A DNA stretch of 47,312 nt. It comes from a virus. The number at the start of each line of letters is the position of its first letter. The first letter of the stretch is position 1. A program made the position numbers and the translations under genes. The notes under the pieces are model-generated. The model was given only the letters and a program-made list of their open reading frames with translations, had not been told where the DNA came from and did no database searches. The DNA lies in the IMG/VR virus record IMGVR_UViG_3300025929_000023, positions 1 through 47,312 of that record. The stretch is one strand, 5' to 3'. This document shows positions 5,081 to 34,177 of this stretch, in pieces.

Positions 5081-5504
5081 CGAGCAAGCAATGCGGCGTT
5101 TGATTAACCTTCAGCGCAAGCGCATCGCAGAGTTAACAGAGGAGCGCGATCGGCAGTACGAATTCAACGCAGGCCAGATCGCCAAAAACGCGCAGCTACA
5201 GAAAGAAATCGATAAAGGCGATTTGCTCTCAAGAGAGTATGTTCGAGTTTCAGCCGACAGGGAGAAGCTGAAGCGCCAACTATCTGCATTCAACTCTGGT
5301 GGATTTGCCGATGCCGATGCTCTGGCCGAGAAGTATCTAGACCTCAAAGCGGAGAACGACAAGCTGAAAATCGCCCTTGCTGATATTCAAGAGATCGCTG
5401 AACGTGAAACCAGCAACGAATCTGCGCTGCTCACTGAGATTACTCAATGCTCGATGGACGCGCTAGCTAGCATCCCCAGCGGGAAAGCGGGAAGGGTGAG
5501 ATGA
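5061..5504 (+). CDS. Coiled-coil hypothetical protein
   Basis: A 147-residue protein dominated by a coiled coil from about residue 12 to 115 (RKRIAELTEERDRQYEFN, later KYLDLKAENDKLKIALADIQ). It has no recognised domain. ATG 5061 is preceded by GGAGGG. The 3' end and the junction with the next gene (AGCGGGAAGGGTGAG-ATGAAG) are nearly repeated at 15161-15203, which suggests a duplicated segment within the early region. Role unknown; a DNA-metabolism scaffold is possible. Confidence 0.6.
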   Translation: MAQPLNNEQAMRRLINLQRKRIAELTEERDRQYEFNAGQIAKNAQLQKEIDKGDLLSREYVRVSADREKLKRQLSAFNSGGFADADALAEKYLDLKAENDKLKIALADIQEIAERETSNESALLTEITQCSMDALASIPSGKAGRVR

Positions 5505-5758
5505 AGATACCGGAAAATTTGAAGCAGCGCAGGGTAGACGTTTCCAATTTGCGATTTTATTCGCTACTGTTTCGTGAAAAACATTGGGAAACAGATGTGC
5601 TGCATTGGACTGTCTTTGCGCAAACACTAGATGAAATAGCTTCTAGAGTTGAGCATGATGCTGAGCGCATGGCCGATCTGCAGGCGGGAATAGACAAGCA
5701 CATCGAACAATGCCCGAGTTGCCTCGCCGATGTTCGGGACTGCACTTGCAAGATGTAA
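5501..5758 (+). CDS. Hypothetical protein with C-terminal Cys cluster
   Basis: An 85-residue protein whose start overlaps the previous stop (ATGA). It begins MKIPENLKQRR. The C-terminus carries CPSCLADVRDCTCKM, a compact Cys4 cluster likely to bind zinc. The N-terminal phrase MK(I/V)PE(N/D)L and the DNA around it match the start of the gene at 15183, so the two gene starts share an origin. No enzymatic motif is visible. Confidence 0.6.
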   Translation: MKIPENLKQRRVDVSNLRFYSLLFREKHWETDVLHWTVFAQTLDEIASRVEHDAERMADLQAGIDKHIEQCPSCLADVRDCTCKM

Positions 5759-10488: not shown

Positions 10489-11313
10489 TTGAGCAAGCTG
10501 CCGGCTATTCAATTCTATCCAGGAGACTGGCGCAAAGACGTCGGTGTGCAGAGCCTCAGCTTTCATGATCGAGGGGTTTGGTTCGAGATGTTGATGCTCA
10601 TGCATGAGTCCGAAAATCGCGGTTTGCTTATCCTAAATGGCGCTCCAATGGAGGAGGAAGCCCTTGCTCGACTCCTCGGTTTGAATAAGCAAGTCTTAGG
10701 CAAAACTCTGGCCCGGCTGCTCTCTACAGGTGTCGCAGGACGCGATGAACAAACCGGCGCGCTGATGTCCCGGCGCATGGTGCGCGACGAATACATCCGA
10801 CAGGTAAGAACGACAGCCGGCAAGAATGGCGGCAACCCTGTTTTGGTTAAGCAAAACGAGGACAAATCTCCAGATTTGGTTAACCAAATTCCAACCACTG
10901 GGGATAAGCAAAAATCAACCCCTTCATCTTCATCTTCACTTTCAACTACAAAACCCGAAAAACAAAAGCGCGCGCCTTCGGCTTTTTCTCTGCCTCCCTG
11001 GATTTCTCAGGTCACGTGGGACGGATTCGAGGAAACGCGCCGGCGTATGCGCAAACCGATGACGGACGCGGCGCGTGCGCTGATTATCAAGCGCCTGGAC
11101 AAGTTCCGGCAGGATGGGCAAGACCCCGAGGCAATGGTGGAGAACGCAATCGCACACGGCTGGATAAGCGTATGGCCAATCGAGGAGGGCCGCAATGGAA
11201 CCGAAGTCAATCGATCAGGGAAAGATTACCAAGGCAATTCGAGCAATGGCGACGATGCGGGCAGCGAAGATCGATCAGGACTCTTTGAGGCTCTATACGG
11301 CAAGACTGGTTAA
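10489..11313 (+). CDS. DUF1376-like replication initiation protein
   Basis: A 274-residue protein. The start is TTG 10489 with AAGGGG six bases before it. The N-terminal block KLPAIQFYPGDWRKDVGVQS, then LSFHDRGVWFEMLMLMHES, is typical of DUF1376 / replisome-organiser winged-helix proteins of phages. A low-complexity Ser/Thr/Lys linker (about residues 140-165) precedes a C-terminal helical domain that is DnaD-like in position. It would bind the phage origin and recruit the helicase or its loader. The last 119 bases overlap the next gene in another frame. Confidence 0.75.
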   Translation: MSKLPAIQFYPGDWRKDVGVQSLSFHDRGVWFEMLMLMHESENRGLLILNGAPMEEEALARLLGLNKQVLGKTLARLLSTGVAGRDEQTGALMSRRMVRDEYIRQVRTTAGKNGGNPVLVKQNEDKSPDLVNQIPTTGDKQKSTPSSSSSLSTTKPEKQKRAPSAFSLPPWISQVTWDGFEETRRRMRKPMTDAARALIIKRLDKFRQDGQDPEAMVENAIAHGWISVWPIEEGRNGTEVNRSGKDYQGNSSNGDDAGSEDRSGLFEALYGKTG

Positions 11314-31900: not shown

Positions 31901-32527
31901 GATTACAGAAATCTTTCGACCGATCAGATTGGGTCGTTGCCTCCAGTCCGGATTTCGTTTACCGGCAAGATGATTGCTTCCGATCTGACGCGGAAATGGA
32001 CCAAGTGGACGATTAACGCCTTCTGCGGCGAGATCATGTACCGCTCAGCCACAGACATGGAAATGACGTTCGGAGGCACGACATCAGCAAACAACGCGCA
32101 GGCCTGGACGCTCGATAGCGGAAAGTTCTCCGACGACGACACCGCGACAGAGATCATTCCGGCCTACTACACGACTTACTTTTTCGTCGGTCATGAGCAA
32201 GAGCAAGCTCTGCAGCTCGGATCGCACAGAAAGCAGTACGACTATCTGACGATGTTTGTGCCGGGCATCGGAACCATTGCCGCTACGCCGTTGCTTTGCT
32301 CCCTTTCGAACTCTCTACCGCCCACTCCGAACATCGCGCTTGATTCGAATCCCGGCAAAGACATGGAAGTCGATGTTAATGCAATTACCAGCCGTTGCGC
32401 GTTCCGCATCTCCGCAACGCCTTTTCTCGGGCAGACAGACAGTTATTTCAGCCTGCAAAAGCTAGTCGTGAACATGAAGAAGGCTCCATGGCAGTGGGTG
32501 CGTGGAACCAATTCAGGGAGCGCTTAA
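28979..32527 (+). CDS. Large tail hub/nozzle-like protein with HGL repeats
   Basis: An 1182-residue protein from GTG 28979. The N-terminal 170 residues and the C-terminal 400 (LYIVTGNAVHETNDNG, RKWTKWTINAFCGEIMYRSA) look like the beta-propeller part of podovirus nozzle or P22 gp10-like stabilisation proteins. Between about residues 195 and 500 lie several repeated beta units with the pattern VTTAS.HGL..G..V.I/V.. (for example SAHNLQVGYQAQISG, SAPHGLLPNNIINISG, SAHGLQIGSVVNV). These look like inserted surface domains. It probably closes the portal after packaging and carries spikes. Function from context. Confidence 0.65.
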   Translation: MATVDQTSIDVPLSLFSSLNTELSPPDLPEGISPDNGDVVYLPGSVSTRPGTSRVFVSDLRATTRIAYEKSYVQPTGVPQNLYLTSDGRLYVEYVAITPNVATLIYTSTASMASSVTAFGREYIALSDGKHGADIPLQWDGKQLTRVTQDGPGIAPSVRSIALPSVQMAVNTSPLTGVIRATPVNPTTVGPPGHSYVLYMALFVQVVSSSGIVTGQRVTIAGNTFWNGTFTVQTVVDSTHVQLWNSTTLNTVGTNGVMTIGAATTLVRTNNSVACATVSAHNLQVGYQAQISGIPASVVGTIATIVLNNSDQPGVAIVTTSAPHGLLPNNIINISGVNPASVGGGITNIALSGDVVTVTTASAHGLQIGSVVNVTPVTNSKLSGQWLVTTVPTTTKFTYAFIDTDIPSGADTGTVTYVWPLANVNPELNYFTVLTAPTATSFTIGLSYTDGSWTGGTITFAWDGIFYVTAVLSATTFTYQQYGPDASTTAVGTVTPYGQATPGIHQAQQCFLLNSGAITAPGPPSTFVMNGGQYLSVTDLAIGSSNVAGRILLFTGAGGAYFFYIPQPAQVNGLTVSTSTQINDNTTTSVLLDFSDATLYAATACSIPGNNLAAQVVLGPCAGFFTYASRLQAWGEYNKVQNFLNMGFEGGYAPSNPNLPLGWTVGASGSGGTLAPTIIPGFTYQVTAAAAGNFGELFQNAYQDAYGTPILLANTQYSARFLTRTVSGSGSLVFTISSASTGFISTATIALGGPVGDWDLLPLTLPTPASIPQDMIIDFYIVANVGGVVAQIDEIELIYTDQPYLDHQERISYVDNPEGFDGLTGVLGPEDDLTPIMNHGVLRNTLYIVTGNAVHETNDNGSTEPSGWNVEEVDDECGAWSIASVARNPQGIGSAGKGFMAWSGPDGAHVFTGRNPEKCSQEIQSLWNAMDTSNAQLAWTKNDQINKRLYFGVPLSVPVPPPPHTITVMQVLVLDYRNLSTDQIGSLPPVRISFTGKMIASDLTRKWTKWTINAFCGEIMYRSATDMEMTFGGTTSANNAQAWTLDSGKFSDDDTATEIIPAYYTTYFFVGHEQEQALQLGSHRKQYDYLTMFVPGIGTIAATPLLCSLSNSLPPTPNIALDSNPGKDMEVDVNAITSRCAFRISATPFLGQTDSYFSLQKLVVNMKKAPWQWVRGTNSGSA

Positions 32528-33084
32528 TGGCTGAGCACGTGAAGAACCATGCGGCCCTGAACCAACAGTTTGGCCATCTGCTGACACAGGCTTTTGACGA
32601 TGTGGTGCAGAGAATCCGCAACATCGGCCAGCAGACCAACGCTCAGCCCAGCGCGCAGGAAACCCCAGCCCCACCCGCTCCAGACGAGCTCAGAGTTGCA
32701 GCGGGGGGAGGGGTAGTTCATCTCCAGGCCGTTCACTATGCGCCGATCTATCGCGGGATTACTTATCACTTCCACGCAGCTTCATTGACCGATCCTTCTT
32801 TCTCTTCGCCGGTAACGCTCTATAGCGGGCCGAATCGTGATGTGAGGATTCCGGTCGGGACTGCGCCGATGCATTACGCCGTGACGTGCGACTACCAGAC
32901 CTCAGGGTCTTCGCCGGTCACTTACCACACGGCAGGTGGAATCAGCCCAAAAGCAGTTGCAGCGATCGGCTCGGAACAGCCTCCGCTTCCTCCCGGGCAG
33001 GGAAGCGGAACAGGGTTTCCCGGGCAGATCAGCGGGTACGGGCCTATCCCTTATCGCGGTTCGATTCCGCCGAGGAGGTCCTGA
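32527..33084 (+). CDS. Hypothetical tail-module protein
   Basis: A 185-residue protein; ATG overlaps the preceding TAA. A helical N-terminus (LNQQFGHLLTQAFDDVVQRI) and a Pro/Ala linker lead to a beta domain (VHYAPIYRGITYHFHAASLT) and a Pro/Gly-rich C-terminus. It could connect tail parts. Unassigned. Confidence 0.6.
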   Translation: MAEHVKNHAALNQQFGHLLTQAFDDVVQRIRNIGQQTNAQPSAQETPAPPAPDELRVAAGGGVVHLQAVHYAPIYRGITYHFHAASLTDPSFSSPVTLYSGPNRDVRIPVGTAPMHYAVTCDYQTSGSSPVTYHTAGGISPKAVAAIGSEQPPLPPGQGSGTGFPGQISGYGPIPYRGSIPPRRS

Positions 33085-33094
33085 AATTGGAGAG

Positions 33095-33219
33095 TCTCCG
33101 GAGAGCGGACCTAATTCCGGACAAAGTTAGGTCACTGCAATATGCCATGAAAACAAAGGGGTTGCGATCTTATTTTTGTCCGGAATTAATTCCGGACATT
33201 TGCGGACTCTCCGGAGAGT
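33095..33219. repeat. Palindromic hairpin element between tail genes
   Basis: The intergenic interval 33085-33229 contains TCTCCGGAGA (33095-33104), TAATTCCGGACAAA (33112-33125), its exact reverse complement TTTGTCCGGAATTA (33175-33188), a perfect 20-bp palindrome (33178-33197, centre AATT) and the 14-bp palindrome ACTCTCCGGAGAGT (33206-33219). The 14-bp arms could form one long hairpin over a 49-base loop. The order mirrors around the centre, as in a MITE-like or recombination element. The stem at 33112-33188 is not followed by a T-run, so a simple terminator is unlikely. Confidence 0.6.
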
Positions 33220-33229
33220 GGGTGGAGAG

Positions 33230-33625
33230 ATGATCATCCGCCAGATCAGGCCATCGGACCACGAAGCGCTGAAACAGTTACACGCGAAGACGCCGCAGAA
33301 ATACGAGATTCCGGACTTTGACGGCAAGAACTTCATTCTCGGACTCGTGGCTGTGGATGAGCAGGACAGACCGAGAGTGTTGCTTTGTTTCCGCCGCACC
33401 GCAGAGGCCTATGTGGTCGTTGATCACGAGTTTGATGTGCCGGCCTTCCGGCTGCTTGCTTTGAGTGAATTGGTCGAAGCAGCCAAGCCGGTAATGGGGT
33501 GTCTGGGATACGAAGATGCGTTCGGGACCATCGGGCCGGATGTGCCACGCAGTTACATTCGCCGTCTCGTGCGGATGGGTTGCCAGGTGTTGGATTGGAC
33601 ATTTGTACGGATGTGGAAGGAGTAG
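33230..33625 (+). CDS. GNAT-like acetyltransferase
   Basis: A 131-residue protein. Order of elements fits a GNAT fold: the start IIRQIRPSDHEALKQLHA, strand NFILGLVAVDEQDRPRVLLC, helix LLALSELVEAAKPVMGCLGY and the late strand YIRRLVRMGCQVLDWTFVRM. The acetyl-CoA loop (R/Q-x-x-G-x-G/A) is not clearly conserved. Small GNAT-like proteins of this kind recur in tail modules of podovirus-like phages with unknown substrate. GTGGAGAG precedes the ATG; the palindromic element lies just upstream. Confidence 0.65.
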   Translation: MIIRQIRPSDHEALKQLHAKTPQKYEIPDFDGKNFILGLVAVDEQDRPRVLLCFRRTAEAYVVVDHEFDVPAFRLLALSELVEAAKPVMGCLGYEDAFGTIGPDVPRSYIRRLVRMGCQVLDWTFVRMWKE

Positions 33626-33628
33626 GGC

Positions 33629-34177
33629 ATGGGCGGAGGCGGTACAAGAAAAGACGCATTCCAGAATTGGGGGACAGGAAACGCCCTGTCGAACCAGTAC
33701 AACTCGCAGGCCCTCGGCATAAGTTCCGCCCTGACACCGACACTCACGGCGCAAGCCATCAACCCTCAAGGCTTCAACCCGACAACGATGGGCCAGATGA
33801 GAACTTCGGCGGAGCAATCCGCTGGAGGGTCAAACGCCGGGATTGCAGGACAGGCCGGATTGAGGGCCGCGAGAACACGGAACATCGGTTCAGGGCAAGC
33901 CGCTACCGCACAAGCAGGACGACAGGCTTCCGAAAACCTTTCCCAGGTAGACACCGGAATCGAATCACAGAACGCAAAACTCAAAGCCAATCAACAGCAG
34001 GAAGGCTTGTCCGGACTGGGCAAGCTCTATGGCGAAGACGTGGGCGCAGGAATGAATGCACTCGGCCTCTCTAACGAAGCGCTGAAATACACGGAATACA
34101 GGCCGTGGCAGGACACGCTGAACGAAGCGCTAAAGGCAGGCGGCCAAGTTGGCGCAGCGGCCATGGCTGGAGGGTAA
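33629..34177 (+). CDS. Probable internal virion (ejection) protein
   Basis: A 182-residue Gly/Ala/Gln-rich helical protein with a flexible N-terminus (MGGGGTRKDAFQNWGTG) and low-complexity AGQAGLRAARTRNIGSGQA. No Cys. This composition and its place as first of three such genes match small ejection proteins (compare P22 gp7) that exit the capsid before the DNA. No motif confirms it. Confidence 0.5.
   Translation: MGGGGTRKDAFQNWGTGNALSNQYNSQALGISSALTPTLTAQAINPQGFNPTTMGQMRTSAEQSAGGSNAGIAGQAGLRAARTRNIGSGQAATAQAGRQASENLSQVDTGIESQNAKLKANQQQEGLSGLGKLYGEDVGAGMNALGLSNEALKYTEYRPWQDTLNEALKAGGQVGAAAMAGG

Follow-up and report, generated by a model that had tools for sequence, protein, structure and literature searches.

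How does a cluster of long, perfect palindromes come to lie within a block of co-directional phage genes? The question is raised by a phage known from a metagenome (IMG/VR virus record IMGVR_UViG_3300025929_000023), the 47,312 bases of which were analysed as a whole and are referred to below as the window. The palindromes lie in a 145-bp segment (33085-33229; 146 bp if a shared A is counted) that separates two genes of the + strand: the conserved upstream gene UP (32527-33084; 185 aa), whose ATG at 32527 overlaps the preceding stop codon, and GN (33230-33625; 131 aa), a GNAT-fold gene that is conserved and syntenic in related phages and is followed on the same strand by the next conserved gene, DN (33629-34177; 182 aa), also found in relatives. 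Both reading frames are spared. A preliminary description of the locus had offered three readings, namely a MITE-like insertion, a recombination site used to swap the tail region, or an mRNA-stabilising structure.

Sequence scans confirmed the existence of the main palindrome, although it is longer than the 20 bp initially claimed: TGTCCGGAATTAATTCCGGACA measures 22 bp (33177-33198). The remaining parts are as described, comprising a 14-bp perfect palindrome, ACTCTCCGGAGAGT (33206-33219), a 10-bp one, TCTCCGGAGA (33095-33104), and an inverted repeat whose arms (33112-33125 and 33175-33188) match perfectly over 14 nt and enclose 49 nt. No other inverted repeat of the window combines arms of at least 12 nt with a spacing of at most 150 nt. 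The order of the parts is indeed mirrored around the centre, the two halves of 33095-33217 being mirror images of each other. Repeat scans and the RNA and DNA folds delimit this inverted-repeat core, in which outer arms of 11 nt (TCTCCGGAGAG at 33095-33105 and CTCTCCGGAGA at 33207-33217; 100% matched) are continued by inner arms of 20 nt (33106-33125 and 33175-33194; 90% matched) that extend the 14-nt repeat. The symmetry is imperfect, since the right half is ~12 nt longer than the left, and because the units are themselves palindromes, an inverted and a direct order of single units are indistinguishable. Five of the 27 TCCGGA hexamers of the window fall within the 125-base stretch. Next in length to the 22-bp one among the perfect palindromes of the window comes ATTTGGTTAACCAAAT, of 16 bp, at 10874-10889. 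A terminator at the element was rejected: only TTT is found past 33198, in agreement with the earlier remark that no T-run follows the main stem, and terminator prediction gave no site at this position.

Such an arrangement might in principle be fortuitous. A palindrome of at least 22 bp occurred in 2 of 100 Markov-simulated windows, and two palindromes of at least 14 bp within 60 nt in 1 of 100. The longest palindrome in other loci of the family is 16 bp (810,335 b of loci compared, a redundant set that includes copies of the window region and leaves out L007-L017), and six inverted repeats with arms of at least 12 nt within 150 nt were found in 38 partly overlapping loci (515,389 b), the longest having 13 nt versus 14 nt here. 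Folding, suggested earlier as a check, yielded a strong RNA structure (z -5.0) and a similarly pronounced DNA structure (z -6.0), none of 200 shuffles being as good in either case; the absolute folding energy of the element is unexceptional for this G+C-rich genome. A chance origin of the palindromes as a cluster is unlikely, while for any single part it would not be absurd. An assembly artefact or a chance cluster might be invoked, as the locus is known from one metagenomic contig and a lone palindrome of this size does appear in simulations, but the segment fits exactly between intact codons and its fold beats every shuffle with RNA and DNA parameters alike, and we consider this explanation highly improbable.

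The origin of the segment was approached through related phages, gathered by terminase, tail-region and neighbour-gene searches of virus records. Among the terminase relatives, L018, L020, L024 and L029 reach 91-95% identity but are short contigs. Forty-eight loci were examined, of which seven were dropped because another locus already represented their contigs (L059, L067, L070, L073, L077, L080 and L083) and seven as devoid of UP and/or GN (L042, L047, L061, L064, L065, L066 and L078), leaving 34 distinct records with both genes. Although these are not all independent, some being closely alike (e.g. L074-L076 and L085-L087), the GN start, as extrapolated from alignments, overlaps the UP stop in 30 of the 34 and lies 2 nt from it in one more, so that the genes overlap or nearly abut in 31. 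The exceptions have gaps of 15 nt (L058), ~42 nt (L081) and 406 nt (L072). In the nearest relative, L041, UP is 81% identical (as it is in L094) and its stop is in register with that of the window; there the GN start overlaps the UP stop as ATGA, and the flanks of our segment, once joined, align to this locus. L045 and L051 display TAATG at the junction, with a Shine-Dalgarno-like AAGGAGG and GAGGAG, respectively, directly before the GN ATG.

The palindromic element was found at the UP/GN junction of none of the 34 relatives. The comparison of relatives for the element plus the GNAT gene, proposed in the preliminary description, thus separates the two, the gene being present and the element absent in all 34 distinct records. 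An empty site, with the same gene pair and no block, can be set against the filled site of the window, in which stop and start codons are intact; the insertion is exact at the codon level, TGA being retained at the left and ATG at the right. The segment also differs in composition (48% G+C, versus 56% for the window). As judged from sequence comparison, the overlap of UP and GN in most relatives argues that 33085-33229 is very probably an insertion on the line of this phage, not a conserved RNA element.

This comparison bears directly on the reading of the segment as an mRNA structure. A lineage-specific structure that arose locally, through insertion and inverted duplication, and was kept for a function in cutting or stabilising the late transcript or in uncoupling GN from UP would be in line with the strong fold and with a position inside a co-directional gene block where both frames are spared. 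However, its absence from the junction in 34 relatives speaks against a conserved need, an RNA hairpin would not call for palindromes as symmetric and loopless as these, and the single available sequence offers no covariation; we regard this alternative as unlikely, albeit worth weighing. Strict conservation of position with compensatory stem changes had been named earlier as an argument for an RNA structure over a mobile element, and conservation is absent in the relatives. From the mRNA-stabilising proposal we therefore retain a hairpin as a likely consequence of the insertion, but not the strict conservation expected of an old RNA function. A known RNA family was rejected, as Rfam 15 gave no match in the window at the gathering threshold; the eight sub-threshold matches include six microRNA precursors (best E 0.15).

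The same loci can be used to judge whether the element might serve site-specific recombination or module exchange in the tail region. L072 (IMGVR_UViG_3300044529_000039) possesses 406 bp with small extra frames at its UP/GN junction (5189-5594), suggesting that at least two lines have been able to accommodate insertions here. While this locus, together with the inverted repeats flanking a spacer in the window, could be taken to favour module exchange, the order and identity of UP, GN and DN are kept on both sides, no second site was found in the window and no recombinase tied to the element was identified. With the genes in their usual order to either side, a site swapping the tail region finds no support, and we hold it to be extremely improbable. 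Further downstream, L045 (10844-11211) and L051 (10580-10959) carry an extra frame of 125-129 aa between GN and DN, the two frames sharing 64% identity over 89 aa, versus just a few bases in the window.

The gene to the right of the insert had been described as GNAT-like and as a possible moron. Its GNAT-like identity is supported at the level of the fold: the AlphaFold model (pLDDT 92.1; 28 sequences) has GNAT-type acetyltransferases as the top Foldseek matches listed against PDB (best E 4.9e-4, with a TM of just ~0.4), a profile search pointed to Thermus TTHA1254 (E 0.005), and in VIA-align the two halves (residues 1-55 and 55-131) matched acetyltransferases separately (Z up to 5.9). The underlying alignment (A4) comprised 27 of the 34 relatives besides the window itself, seven sequences (L044, L055, L071, L076, L084, L086 and L087) having been left out as truncated, redundant or of unclear start. 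The window protein did not reach the Pfam GNAT model, and the structural matches suggest that GN may be a swapped or rearranged GNAT with an unusual order of halves. GN may be an analogue of T7 gp13; no T7 protein is named among the fold matches listed. The idea of a moron is contradicted by the 34 distinct records of related viruses in which GN occupies this position; its constant position and its overlap with UP in relatives make it a member of a conserved gene block and not cargo.

To what class of element might the insert belong? Among the general criteria for MITEs, terminal inverted repeats are seen ~10-12 nt inside the edges of the insert, and filled and empty sites are provided by the window and its relatives. 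A 7-bp direct repeat, TGGAGAG, is found on the + strand at 33088-33094 and 33223-33229, the right copy (from direct-repeat and duplex readings) being also Shine-Dalgarno-like and adjoining the GNAT start. As a target-site duplication this repeat is ambiguous, because GGAGAG is also part of the palindromes, and membership in a named family is therefore not demonstrated. Taken as a target duplication, TGGAGAG would leave 33095-33222 (128 bp) as the mobile unit; otherwise the unit would be the full 145-146 bp, with no duplication beyond one A. No transposase-specific end motif was identified in the insert, and single-strand transposition of the IS200/REP type could also account for palindromic ends that show no clear duplication. 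An integron-like GTTAGG at 33126, which by eye forms a short stem with GACCTAA, was rejected as too short for an attC.

Several described families of small repeats resemble the insert in part. Correia/NEMIS elements are likewise short, frequently 104-108 or 153-157 bp long, end in inverted repeats and have been found within a prophage region; according to PMC2649163 they usually have TA targets, many copies and a distribution confined to Neisseria, features in which they appear to differ from the insert. TA is absent from the ends of our core. ERIC (RU-1), as presented in PMC2229807, is similar in its 127 bp, intergenic position, co-transcription with neighbours and stem-loop transcript, but has a 7-bp terminal inverted repeat, 5'TA3' termini and a target-site duplication, whereas the core in the window ends in TCTCC...GGAGA, with TA only in the interior, and is single-copy in the sets searched. 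REPINs share the organisation of two inverted palindromic units with a spacer, forming one hairpin (PMC3116915); the insert differs in that neither a GTAG nor a CGTC tag is present in 33085-33229 on either strand, in not being repeated and in having no known RAYT. Tolerance of changes in the REP tag differs among systems, according to PMC8266576. MITE insertions in viral genomes have also been published, but those considered here from PMC6004678 concern wasp polydnaviruses, and the strings 'bacteriophage' and 'prokaryot' do not occur in that paper.

A mobile element might be expected elsewhere, and the preliminary description had proposed a search for other copies with target-site duplications. 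That search returned no second copy in 37 related records (15 + 22, the set of 22 giving a single match of 15 nt), in 50,697 phages or in 72,556 plasmids, nor was another copy found in viral contigs with two exact patterns. A whole-genome collection, probed with one near-exact pattern, gave as sole match a near-identical palindrome of 23 bp in a Hydrogenedentes contig (L007), followed by further inverted repeats (5560-5720). This pattern is single in its own genome and absent from the other genomes of the 68 searched in the phylum. With one 23-bp palindrome, differing surroundings and a single copy, an element shared with Hydrogenedentes was rejected in favour of chance.

The same searches inform a further alternative, an operator-like site for a dimeric DNA-binding protein. 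Three half-sites of the TGTCCGGAATT type (33113-33123, 33177-33187 and 33188-33198) and the loopless nature of the 22-bp palindrome would suit such a site; on the other hand, viral contigs yielded no further occurrence of the 20-bp core of this palindrome, a palindrome of such size occurs once in the window, no sigma-70-type promoter-like site was detected within 32500-33900, and the position is in the middle of a gene block. An operator thus appears very unlikely.

We favour a MITE-like insertion because the segment has inverted ends, a differing composition, no convincing gene and an empty site in relatives. Against it stand the lack of a second copy in the sets searched and a core that stops short of the insert edges; of the three earlier proposals the MITE-like one nevertheless fits best, since related records have this gene pair but not the block, although neither another copy nor an unambiguous target-site duplication was found. 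We accordingly place moderate confidence in a mobile-element origin, with a single MITE-like insertion that now would form a long intercistronic mRNA hairpin. Under this explanation, a small, non-autonomous, imperfectly palindromic element (core of ~123 bp, insert of 145 bp), probably acquired from the bacterial host, would have been moved by a transposase supplied in trans to the stop/start junction of the co-directional genes UP and GN, whose counterparts in related phages overlap.

The consequences of the favoured insertion for expression can be sketched from predicted structures. The insert is apparently non-coding and hairpin-forming: none of its frames proved convincing in Pfam, NCBIfam and plasmid comparisons, the frames of 49 and 115 aa running through it being matched by neither Pfam nor NCBIfam at E<=10 and the 49-aa frame by no plasmid, while a minus-strand frame gave a sub-cutoff Pfam match (E 0.016). 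The transcript would fold into a long stem, likely a substrate of or a barrier to RNase III, whose cleavage or protection of this stem we infer by analogy with Correia elements, the transcribed stem of which binds RNase III according to PMC2649163.

The insert also alters the surroundings of the GN start. A strong Shine-Dalgarno-like AGGAGGT on the + strand at the end of UP (33073-33079; duplex energy -12.4 kcal/mol), homologous to the Shine-Dalgarno of L045 and L051, is now ~150 nt from the GN start. GN would now be translated from a ribosome-binding site in the right end of the insert, GGAGAGTGGGTGGAGAG, replacing both the coupling to UP and the displaced AGGAGGT. GGAGAGT ends 10 nt before the GN ATG in a region predicted to be half or more paired, so that a reduced or altered expression of GN is as likely as a full one; in the larger fold GGGUGGAGAG, the last bases before the GNAT start, are paired at a mean of 0.76, so that an open ribosome-binding site is not favoured and this step is weakened. 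In T4, a hairpin is known to bring a Shine-Dalgarno near a start. Such a hairpin bringing the old Shine-Dalgarno near the GNAT start was rejected here, as too many unpaired bases would remain between the two even with the base folded. A 28-codon frame on the + strand (33147-33233) opens with an ATG in the hairpin loop and closes in an ATGA overlap with the GNAT start; it might restore coupling to GN. Its status as a gene is doubtful: it is part of a 115-aa frame (32886-33233) already open from 32886, inside UP, and by eye no good Shine-Dalgarno precedes its ATG.

Genes in phage blocks lie tightly packed, and selfish repeats among them are unusual; the feature is real, its class ordinary and its place unusual. 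It is conceivable, although quite unlikely, that the insert represents an undescribed family of ~125-bp loopless palindromes from an unsampled bacterial lineage, moving into phages and surviving in packed operons through insertion at stop/start junctions, a ribosome-binding end of its own and possibly a 28-codon frame with ATGA restoring translation of the next gene. The GNAT gene, for its part, is no longer a moron candidate. The pair of filled and empty sites indicates that an element of this kind can become lodged in a late gene block with both genes left intact, and it constitutes a ready case for the effect of a long intercistronic hairpin on translational coupling.
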